NCBI GenBank assembly: GCA_009926295.1
Contig: RFPF01000004.1
Location: 1-33,841 of the forward strand
DNA from: Planctomycetia bacterium
GTDB taxonomy: Bacteria; Planctomycetota; Planctomycetia; Pirellulales; UBA1268
Reading direction: 5' to 3'
DNA: 33,841 bases
The notes beneath the pieces were generated by a model, which saw nothing but the letters and a program-made list of their open reading frames with translations, did not search any database and was not told the origin of the DNA. Both the position numbers and the translations under genes were made by a program. This document shows, piece after piece, positions 10,879 through 32,366 of this stretch. Numbering within the stretch: the first letter of the stretch is position 1; every line of letters starts with the position of its first letter.

Positions 10879-10896
10879 TGGGTTCCCGCCCGCGCC

Positions 10897-11038
10897 GGCT
10901 CGCGGCTGCCCGGCGCCTCTCGCTTGACGTTCGCCTCGGCCCTCCCGGCCTCGGCTCACTGCATGTCCGCTTCGCTTTCGCCATCCATGGCTGCGCTCGC
11001 TCCCATAGCCCGCTCGAGGGCACGGGCAGCCCCGAGCC
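10897..11038 (+). repeat. Dispersed inverted-repeat element, copy A
   Basis: A 142-base stretch bounded by GGCTCGCGGCTGCCC (10897-10911) and its near-complement GGGCAGCCCCGAGCC (11024-11038). The interior shares long blocks with the opposite-strand copy at 16686-16827, such as GACGTTCGCCTC, CGGCTCACT and GCCATCCATGGCT, in the same order and almost the same spacing. It carries no gene and sits between the RNase Z-like gene and hemW. Similarity continues a few bases past both ends. Probably a planctomycete intergenic repeat family; no transposase is nearby. Confidence 0.8.
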
Positions 11039-11106
11039 TCCCGAACTGAACTTCATTGGGGGAGCCCGAAGCCGGCGCGAACGCGTAGACCAAGTCGCCT
11101 AAGCCG

Positions 11107-15957: not shown

Positions 15958-16377
15958 ATGGCCGCAGAGCAGTCTTCCAAGTCCGTCCGCTCCACCGACA
16001 TCCTCGCCACCGGCCGGCGGAAGACCGCCGTCGCCCGGGTGCGGCTTCGCAGCGGCTCGGGGAAGATCGTGGTCAACGGCCGCGAACTCGAGGCCTATTT
16101 TCCTGCCGTCAAGGATCGTGTGCTCGTGTCGGGCGCGCTCGAGACCGTGGGAAAGCTGACGGCAGTGAACGTCGACATCACGGTCGACGGCGGCGGGCCC
16201 ACCGGCCAGGCCGGCGCCTGCCGGCTCGGCATCGCGCGGGCGCTGAAAGCCTTCGACGCGGAACTCGCCGAACCGCTTCGCCACAGCAAACTCCTCACGC
16301 GCGACGGCCGCATGAAGGAACGCAAGAAGTACGGCCTCCGTGGCGCCCGCCGCGGCACGCAGTTCAGCAAGCGTTAG
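15958..16377 (+). CDS. rpsI: 30S ribosomal protein S9
   Basis: 139 residues. It has the S9 signature GRRKTAVARVRLRSGSGKIV near the start, GGPTGQAGACRLGIARAL in the middle, and the basic tail YGLRGARRGTQFSKR, whose C-terminal residues reach the P-site tRNA. A longer N-terminal lead (MAAEQSSKSVRSTDILA) is present compared with enterobacterial S9. AGGA lies ten bases before the ATG. Cotranscribed with rplM; a palindrome 26 bases after the stop may end the transcript. Confidence 0.97.
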   Translation: MAAEQSSKSVRSTDILATGRRKTAVARVRLRSGSGKIVVNGRELEAYFPAVKDRVLVSGALETVGKLTAVNVDITVDGGGPTGQAGACRLGIARALKAFDAELAEPLRHSKLLTRDGRMKERKKYGLRGARRGTQFSKR

Positions 16378-16403
16378 TCGCTCGCGATCTCGGCACGTAG
16401 CTC

Positions 16404-16675
16404 GACCAGGGCCTGGTCAGCACCTTCGCCGGAAGTTCAGGTAGGCGATAAGTACCCGCATTCGGAGCCGGCGGCACGCTGCTCCATCGCCGAGGGCGAT
16501 CGCTAGTCTGCTTCACGGGAAGTCTCGGCATCCTGCCGAACTTCCCGTGGCCGACCTCCGTCGGCTGGTACGCACCCGGCCCTCCGGGCCTTGCGCTGTG
16601 TGATAGCGCGCGTATCTGCCCGTCGGCTCTTCCGCATCGCACCGACCGTCTCCGCCGAAAGTTCCCTGCGCCTAC
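16404..16675. other. Multi-hairpin intergenic region, possible structured RNA or repeat remnant
   Basis: No gene is seen in 16378-16965. Instead there is a run of perfect inverted repeats: 16404-16418 (GACCAGG/CCTGGTC), 16486-16500 (ATCGCC/GGCGAT), 16514-16549 (16-pair stem, one bulge), 16550-16565 (GCCGAC/GTCGGC), 16578-16590 (GGCCC/GGGCC) and 16593-16609 (GCGCT/AGCGC). GTAGGCG at 16441-16447 can pair with CGCCTAC at 16669-16675, which would close them into one domain, and CGCCGGAAGTTC (16427-16438) recurs as CGCCGAAAGTTC (16653-16664). It matches no RNA family I can recall. Confidence 0.5.
16514..16549. terminator. Strong hairpin downstream of rpsI
   Basis: The arms CACGGGAAGT-TCGGCA and TGCCGA-ACTTCCCGTG pair over 16 positions with one bulged C and a TCC loop. 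It is the most stable element in the gap, about 136 bases after the rpsI stop. No T-run follows, so it could be a terminator or part of the larger structured region. Confidence 0.4.
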
Positions 16676-16685
16676 GAGTTGAGGA

Positions 16686-16827
16686 GGCTCGGGGTTACCC
16701 CTGCCGTTGAGACGGCGTATTTGACCAGCGGAGCCATGGATGGCGCAGCACAGGCAAATCCGAGTGAGCCGTAGCCTGGAGGGCGGAGGCGAACGTCCGG
16801 CGAGACGGTACGGGGTAACCCCGAGCC
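16686..16827 (-). repeat. Dispersed inverted-repeat element, copy B
   Basis: A 142-base element bounded by perfect 16-base inverted repeats, GGCTCGGGGTTACCCC (16686-16701) and GGGGTAACCCCGAGCC (16812-16827). Read on the minus strand its interior follows copy A at 10897-11038 block by block. A left-end fragment recurs at 32326-32366. Together these define a small dispersed repeat family with opposite orientations in one window. Confidence 0.82.
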
Positions 16828-16965
16828 GGCGCCTTCCCATGGCAGCGAGCGCCCGGCGATGAGTGGCACAACCGGCATATCCGGCCCGGAGGGCGGATTT
16901 CGCCGGGTCGGATGCCGAAGGCATACTTGTGGGGTAGGCCGACCCCAGTTTCCGGAGGATGCCCT

Positions 16966-17775
16966 GTGCTGCCGATCTCCCCGCGGCTCGCCATTGTCGT
17001 CGCCACGCTCGTCGTGATCGGCGCATCATCGCCGACGCACGCCCGCGAACCGGTCGCCCGGTCGCTCGCATCGAAGTCCGTCGATGCCCAGGATGTGCTC
17101 GAGGCCGAGGAGGCCGGTCTCGTCGACGTGCGGTACATACCCAACGATTCGCGGTCGGCCCAGATCATCGTCACCAACAGGTCGCGAAAGCCGCTCACGC
17201 TCCGGCTGCCCACGGCGTTTGCCGGAGTGCCCGTGCTCGCCCAGATGGGCATGGGCGGCGGTGGCGGCGGAGCCGGATTCGGAGCGGGAGGCATCGGCGG
17301 CGGCGCCCAAACCACCGGCGGCGGCGGATTCGGCCAGCAGGGCATGAACGGCATGGGCGGGATGGGAGGCGGTGGCGCCGGTGGCATGGGCGGCGGCGCG
17401 TTCTCGATTCCGCCCCAGAAGACGCGGGTGCTCCGCGTGGCGACCGTGTGCCTCGAACACGGCAAGCCCGAGCCCTCGCCGCGTTATCCCTACAGGCTCG
17501 AGGAGATCACGGCTTTTTCCAGCGATCCGAAGCTGGCGTTCGTGCTCGAGAGCCTCTCGCGCGGCGAGGTGCCGCAGAAGGTCGCCCAGGCGGCGGCTTG
17601 GCATCTCTCGAACGGGTTGTCGTGGGAAAAACTCGCCGCTGAAAAGATCGACCACGCTGGCGGCGTGCCGGACGAGGCGTATTTCACGGCGGCCGAACTC
17701 ATCGCCGCCCACCGCGTCGTCGAGGCAGCGTCGCGGGTGGCCGCTTCGCGGCAGCCCTCGTCGTCGGCTCAGTAG
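16966..17775 (+). CDS. Secreted protein with a glycine-rich central segment
   Basis: 269 residues, function not recognised. GTG 16966 is chosen because GGAGG lies seven bases upstream and it directly opens a signal peptide ([20 protein letters not shown], cleavage probably after THA). A short beta-type segment follows ([20 protein letters not shown]), then a Gly/Met/Gln-rich low-complexity stretch (about 102-148), then a conserved-looking C-terminal half with many charged residues ([29 protein letters not shown] is its clearest block, about 189-217). The end resembles a helical protein-interaction region. Its stop overlaps the stop of the convergent DUF1559 gene by seven bases. Probably surface-located; nothing shows a reaction. 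Confidence 0.8.
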
Positions 17776-27059: not shown

Positions 27060-28628
27060 GTGAGCGAACTCCATCACGAGTGCGGCCTCGCGGCGATCTA
27101 CCACCTGCCGGGTGCCGAGCCGAGTCCGCTCTGCCCGGCACAGGGCCCGGACGAGGTGTCCCGTCTCCTGCCGCGGATGCTCCTCGACATCCAGAACCGC
27201 GGCCAGCTCTCCGCCGGGATGACCGCATGGAGCCCGGCCCGCAGCCAGCTCCTCGCCACGCTCAAGGACGTCGGCACCGTGAGCGAGGTCTTTCGGCTCG
27301 GCCACCGTGGCAAGTACGAGAGCCTCATGGAGCAGCACCTCGGCCGTGCGGCGATAGGCCACGTCCGCTACGCCACCTGCGGTGCCGACGACCGCGGCTA
27401 TGCGCAGCCGCTCGAGCGGCCGCACATCCAGAAACGGAAGTGGTTCTCCTTCGGATTCAACGGCCAGCTCGCCAACTATCCGGAACTGCGGACCGAGATC
27501 CTCGCCGGAGACGACAACCATCTCGTTCGTGACAACGACACCGAAGTGATCATGCACGCGATCGGCAACGAGCTTTCGCGCAACCCGGAAATGGCCCCCG
27601 CCGACCTGCTCGCGGCGATCTCGGGGCGTTTCGACGGTGCCTGGAACATCGCGATGCTCGACGCGTGCGGGCGAATGATCGTCGCGCGCGACCCGCTCGG
27701 CATCCGGCCGATGGAGTACGCCCGGCTCGGCCCGCTCGTGGCCGCGGCGAGCGAGAGCGTTGCCCTGCTCAACCTCGGCTTCCCGCCCGAGTCGATCCGT
27801 TCGCTCGAGCCCGGGACGGCGCTGGTCATCGACGAAGGACAGGTGCGGATCGACCGCTTCGCCGCCAGCCCGCGGCGGGCACACTGCTTCTTCGAGTGGA
27901 TCTACTTCGCCAACGTCGCGAGCACCATGGACGAACGCAGCGTGTATCTGACGCGGAAGCGACTCGGCGAGGAACTGGCCCGGCTCGAGACCGTTCCGAT
28001 AGATGCCGACACGGTGGTGGTGCCGGTGCCCGACACCAGCAAAGCCGCCGCCGACGCGATGGCCTACGCGCTGTCGACGCCCTGCGTCGAGGGCCTGATC
28101 CGCAATCGCTACACCGGCCGCACGTTCATCGACGGGGCCTCGAGCAGGCGGCAGAAGGCCGAGTCGAAATATACGCCGCTCCGCGAGGTCCTCGAGGGGA
28201 AGAGAGTCCTGCTCGTCGAGGACTCGATCGTGCGCAGCACCACGATGAAGGTGCTGCTGGGGAGGATGCGGTCGCTCGGCCGGGCCCGCGAGATCCACGT
28301 GAGGGTCGCCTGCCCGCCGATCATCGCGCCGTGCTTCTACGGGATCGACATGTCGACGATCGACGAGCTCTTCGCGCCGGCGTTCCTTCCCGACGGACGG
28401 CTTTCGGAGGAGGCGCAGGGGGCGATGGCCGCCAAACTGGGGGCCGACTCGCTCCGCTACCTGCCCGTCGCCGCGGTGGCACGGTCGATCGGCCTGGAGG
28501 CCTCGGAACTCTGCCAGGCCTGCCTGACGGGTGACTATCCCACGCCCGCCGGGGAGCGGCTGTACCAGGTCGCCCTCGCCCAGACAGCGCGAGGCCGAGC
28601 GTGCCGCACGTACGAGGCCGTTCCGTAG
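27060..28628 (+). CDS. purF: Amidophosphoribosyltransferase, Fe-S type
   Basis: 522 residues; the first committed step of purine synthesis, moving glutamine amide nitrogen to PRPP. GTG 27060 places the nucleophile Cys at residue 8 ([11 protein letters not shown]), so a short leader must be cleaved, as in Bacillus-type enzymes. Glutaminase motifs HVRYATCG and GFNGQLANY are present. The four [4Fe-4S] ligands known from the Bacillus enzyme are visible: C276 ([10 protein letters not shown]), C425 (PCFYGID), C485 and C488 (CQAC). The PRPP loop reads [15 protein letters not shown], with E and S where VDDSIVRGTT is usual. It is single and monocistronic, convergent with trmB. Confidence 0.9.
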
Positions 28629-28630
28629 GA

Positions 28631-28644
28631 CGGGCCTCAGCCCG
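28631..28644. terminator. Hairpin between purF and trmB
   Basis: CGGGC-CTCA-GCCCG forms a five-pair stem directly after the purF stop and over the trmB stop codon. A similar GACGGGCTTCAGCC sequence occurs at 32282-32299. No T-run follows. Confidence 0.35.
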
Positions 28645-32160: not shown

Positions 32161-32281
32161 GGCTGTGCGTGTGGCGGCAACTTTTCCGACTGGGCAAATC
32201 GTAGGCTCGGGACGGTCCGCGTTCCCCGCGCAGACTGCGATCCCCGTGGACCACCCCTGGGTTTCATCGTCTGAACCGTGG

Positions 32282-32299
32282 GACGGGCTTCAGCCTGTC
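32282..32299. repeat. Short palindromic repeat in the spacer
   Basis: GACGGGC-TTCA-GCCTGTC forms a seven-pair hairpin with one G-T pair. The same core appears at the purF-trmB junction (28630-28645). It may be a terminator of the upstream toroid gene or a dispersed short palindrome. Confidence 0.4.
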
Positions 32300-32325
32300 A
32301 CTGCCTGCCTCAACGTGCCCAATCC

Positions 32326-32366
32326 GGCTCGGGGTTGCCCCGTACCATCTCGGCGGACGCTTCCCG
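32326..32366 (+). repeat. Dispersed element, partial copy C
   Basis: About 40 bases starting GGCTCGGGGTTGCCCC match the left end of copy B on its minus strand with a handful of differences (GTACC-TCTCG-CGGACG order kept). The right half and the second inverted repeat are missing. It lies in the 277-base gap between the two toroid-protein genes; nothing else is seen there. Confidence 0.65.

Follow-up and report, generated by a model that had tools for sequence, protein, structure and literature searches.

Probable nested mosaic of three dispersed hairpin repeat families in the gap behind rpsI of a planctomycete

The gap 3' of rpsI in the window (the whole stretch of 33,841 nucleotides that was analysed) is a repeat mosaic, located approximately at 16426-16861. 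Its cluster of hairpins is very probably a nest of three dispersed, non-autonomous hairpin repeat families, here called A, B and C, that arrived behind rpsI in this lineage. The evidence comprises the copy number of the repeats, a composite B-C-A copy at a non-orthologous site, the absence of the mosaic from four congeners, the covariation of the stems, and the placement of the repeats at the 3' ends of genes.

Hairpins in the rpsI gap

The gene 5' of the mosaic encodes ribosomal protein S9 (rpsI, 15958-16377, + strand; Pfam PF00380, E-value 6.7e-43). All six inverted repeats that the initial annotation placed behind it are present, with perfect outer arms of 7, 6, 10, 6, 5 and 5 bp, and so is a direct repeat of 12 bases, CGCCGGAAGTTC (16427-16438) and CGCCGAAAGTTC (16653-16664), equal at 11 of 12 positions. 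Between 16404 and 16675 there are 9 perfect stems of 5 bp or more, where dinucleotide shuffles have 3.1, and the number of paired bases was reached by none of the 200 shuffles. The comparison of folding with shuffled sequence that had been proposed for both strands favours the hairpin region (z = -2.5 on the + strand and -3.0 on the - strand), no shuffle folding as well. The strongest inverted repeat of the gap, 16 bp and perfect (16686-16701 with 16812-16827), lies just beyond the coordinates annotated at first. The first palindrome (16404-16418, GACCAGG-G-CCTGGTC, with a centre of 1 nt) has no counterpart among the repeat copies, which begin 3' of it, and lies in spacer.

The initial annotation also described a seventh pairing (GTAGGCG at 16441 with CGCCTAC at 16669) that would close the cluster into one domain. 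The two strings are exact complements, but the pairing is lacking in most other copies of B (judged by eye on printed copies), and it is missing from the minimum-energy fold of the + strand. It is very unlikely that the locus encodes a structured RNA gene of its own, or a riboswitch-like domain, with that 7-bp pairing as the closing stem: the pieces of the supposed domain are dispersed and variously combined, the closing pair is not conserved, the cluster is missing behind rpsI in four congeners, and Rfam covariance models, with which an RNA family was sought, gave no match at threshold for the region (the weak matches are chance), even though the region folds better than its shuffles and the repeats truly covary. 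The suspicion of structured RNA holds for the repeats, which fold and covary, and not for a discrete RNA gene, of which there is no sign. The opinion that the gap is more than a terminator is sustained, no intrinsic terminator (a G+C-rich hairpin followed by a T run) having been found in 16300-17050. Approximately 95 bp before the next gene (16862-16958, + strand) are native conserved DNA, kept in two congeners that lack the mosaic (G002 and G005) with a common GGCATACT stretch, and are a candidate promoter or leader.

Modules of the mosaic and their copies

By comparison of copies, module B consists of a left part (16454-16508, + strand), which contains the hairpin at 16486-16500, and a right part (16592-16675, + strand). 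Inside B is module C (16510-16600, + strand), with three hairpins (16514-16549, 16550-16565 and 16578-16590), a single-stranded DNA fold z of -8.3, and a right edge that overlaps the match to B, so that the C/B joint is approximate. The Y-shaped module A (16683-16832, + strand) has the perfect 16-bp repeat as its end stem and two inner hairpins with GGA loops on the + strand, and is followed by a tail common to other composite copies (16833-16861, + strand; matched to 16861 by G004:C166 and to 16859 by G000:C234). At the left, 16426-16438 is 92% complementary to the right end of A (16791-16803) and, to judge from sequence comparison, is probably the remnant of a left terminal repeat; a longer form of the inverted A end is found at the matching position in three copies (L043, L044 and L049).

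Six genomes of the genus were compared, namely the window's own (G000) and five congeners (G001-G005). Multiple genomic copies had been set beforehand as evidence against an RNA, and BLAST gives 94 matches to the mosaic in the window's own genome, which points to a repeat. A copy of the whole B-C-A composite in another species (G004:C166) matches 16454-16861 over 408 bp (86% identical) beside a different gene. B is found without C at five loci (L041, L043, L050, L058 and L074) and with C in the window, L045 and L103; approximately 18-30 nt of B give way to C, which is not what a clean insertion would leave at the B-C joint. At other loci C is found inside A, and the junction of B, with or without C, to A is common to several copies. 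A is also present singly, and convergent A ends recur approximately 310-380 bp apart, bounding units. The initial annotation's other suggestion, a decayed repeat array, was right as to a repeat in kind, but the arrangement is a nest of three dispersed families. A decayed tandem array is extremely improbable: short tandem runs of C with a period of 114-122 bp do occur in some congeners, but each module is present once at the rpsI locus and the whole composite has a copy elsewhere.

A second copy of A occupies another gap of the window (10892-11041, - strand, 77% identical). In G002, the GCCAT of the first inner hairpin of A stands before many copies of C (L284, L289, L290, L292, L293, L294 and L296), as would result from an entry of C into the hairpin tip followed by spread of the joint unit. 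C lies in opposite orientations relative to the flanks in G000 and G002 at one gap that is apparently orthologous between them (L085/L097). The possibility that B is a remnant of coding sequence was also considered: one strand carries an open frame in several copies but not in others, and B was left as non-coding.

Covariation, distribution and placement

Covariation is strong in the stems of A and C, and their loops are near-constant. The consensus of A is a three-way junction fold (z = -7.3) in which, among 39 copies, compensatory changes occur at 19 of 37 predicted pairs, and both inner loops are GGA on the + strand of the window in nearly all of these copies. Hairpins 1 and 3 of C have 93% paired cells versus 82% when shuffled and 58 double-change cells versus 10.8, and the middle hairpin covaries by a per-copy count. 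On the + strand of the window the loops of C are TCC, although 11 of 32 copies have TCG in loop 1.

Sponge RNAs of the CsrB/RsmZ type have repeated hairpins with GGA loops, and so does the + strand of A. That the hairpins titrate multiple CsrA proteins is nevertheless highly improbable. The GGA of A's loops persists while the stems covary, and each of the six genomes of the genus has 3-5 matches to csrA, but A in its usual orientation behind genes puts UCC, not GGA, on the mRNA strand, the window copy being an exception; the GGA of C is also on the opposite strand, and its first loop is variable. The absence of an Rfam match is a further difference from the known sponge RNAs. One csrA locus of the window's own genome (G000:C2:22264-22419, L125) has copies of A, C and REP nearby.

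Covariance models were calibrated for A (154 positions) and C (88 positions). Within the family, 27 of 30 genomes carry A and 19 of 30 carry C, and 19 genomes from other families of the order yielded neither; copies per genome are lower bounds, with at least 62 candidates for A in several genomes and at least 90 for C. For B in its 157-bp form, good matches occur in four of the six genomes of the genus (G000, G002, G004 and G005), the other matches being short and weak (G001 and one genome from a different genus), which suggests that B is almost confined to this genus. The named records with the A core are planctomycete metagenome-assembled genomes (MAGs), one of which carries a lake name, and the record titles would suggest a freshwater habitat in general. 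An exact A core is also present in a contig labelled as a Candidatus Kuenenia stuttgartiensis MAG (L213), possibly a mislabelled or contaminated bin; other records are labelled Planctomycetia or Planctomycetaceae. The exact A pattern was not found in viral contigs.

The mosaic is missing behind rpsI in G001, G002, G003 and G005, whose gaps have their own differing sequence and offer no clean junction at which to read a target-site duplication, so that the edges of the mosaic are approximate. The purH locus has C in the window's own genome; in G002 its flanks are alignable and the gap is longer, with a B-A composite copy (purH and the other genes beside C were recognised by eye from translated ends). 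A large cross-genome BLAST for orthologous sites gave mostly repeat-to-repeat matches.

According to codon-usage gene calls, regions with A, B or C include 94 convergent, 86 tandem and 4 divergent ones, versus 9 convergent, 142 tandem and 73 divergent among regions without repeats (Fisher p = 2e-17 and 8e-30), as called by a home-made program trained on these loci and with compared regions drawn from loci that had been selected because they carry repeats. The contrasts were weaker under an earlier heuristic. The first codon-usage caller missed rpsI, and a refined caller recovered rplM, rpsI and the next gene. With the refined caller, single copies of A between co-directional genes are antisense in 20 cases versus sense in 4 (p = 0.0015, which is not a clean single test because one caller after another was applied to a largely shared set of loci); the ratio varied with the caller (25:2, 18:5, 16:3 and 20:4), the bias weakening from the first count and persisting. 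Composites of A and B are antisense versus sense in a ratio of 14:8, and that of the window is sense. C starts exactly 3 nt past a same-strand stop codon in approximately 10 copies of a first sample and in 5 of 39 copies of a second sample fetched afterwards.

These placements bear on the proposal that the repeats have been domesticated as RNA elements of 3' ends (for termination, or for 3' processing or stability) and spread because they are useful rather than as selfish DNA, which is possible, although the balance of evidence makes it doubtful. Convergent enrichment and divergent depletion, the antisense excess of single A, the starts of C past stop codons and the covarying stems are all in its favour. 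However, the rpsI locus has no U-run terminator, purging of promoter insertions also explains the placement, as the published placement of REPs would allow (PMC3733652), and the orientation count of A depends on the gene caller and is accompanied by a lesser excess in the A+B composites and a sense copy in the window.

Relation to known repeats and possible role

Most REPs are located between genes that converge or run in the same direction, near 3' ends, and their GTAG termini often supply a TAG stop codon (PMC3733652). A and C are likewise high-copy extragenic palindromes at the 3' ends of genes, some adjoining the stop codon, in dimers or clusters, but A is approximately 150 bp and C approximately 90 bp, folding as a three-way junction and three hairpins respectively, versus 20-40 bp for a REP; the GTAG/CGTC foot was not seen at the edges of A or C in the alignments; and a RAYT-type transposase was not detected in the window's draft genome. 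As in BIMEs (PMC2817692), palindromic modules are joined in varied order and orientation, but A, B and C are larger and one module lies inside another. MITEs are similar in their terminal inverted repeats, which convergent A ends parallel, but differ in that no autonomous partner was found for A, B or C and that A also occurs singly. A and C thus work like REPs and BIMEs but fail the defining features of the REP/RAYT class, and the mosaic looks like an uncatalogued relative of known repeats, not a new RNA gene. A literature search, which was not exhaustive, surfaced no paper describing A, B or C.

A 22-nt GTAG-headed hairpin of the classical REP-like kind flanks many copies and recurs in the window at 28625 (REP-like match 28625-28642) and 32278, where the GTAG-type REP hairpin (32278-32300) adjoins a 36-bp fragment of an A end (32324-32359).

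The Y1 transposase domain (PF01797) has no match in G000, G003, G004 or G005, which for G000 (a draft, 94% complete, in 472 contigs) is not proof of absence. Among the Y1 loci of congeners (L081-L083), a C-like stretch is found in L083 (G002) only, as a 15-bp match, with a longer match to C at 1935-2014. Longer intervals between convergent A ends were considered as autonomous elements and rejected, having ordinary genes inside; assembly gaps could hide one.

If the three families form a nested mosaic as proposed, A, B and C would have been mobile at least in the past, B coming to hold C inside it and B, with C, becoming joined to A. Spread may have proceeded via folded single-stranded DNA or via recognition of terminal repeats by an enzyme acting in trans, and the repeats would survive mainly where insertion spares promoters. 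Where transcribed, they would give strong hairpins in the 3' untranslated region that could stop 3' exonucleases or help termination, and C at 3 nt past a stop codon could affect the terminating ribosome. An RNA role of A and C is plausible but unproven. A more specific proposal, that A (as a Y-junction RNA) and C (as a triple hairpin after stop codons) are widespread family-specific modules of transcript ends or of translation termination, spread as mobile DNA by a non-RAYT enzyme, is put forward speculatively and is unlikely as it stands.

An apparent RNA domain behind rpsI has thus become a nest of repeats, and two calibrated covariance models are now available for A and C, which pervade one family and have no Rfam match. 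Whether repeats of such a kind act at transcript ends can be tested directly, given the orientation bias of A and the starts of C at 3 nt past stop codons.
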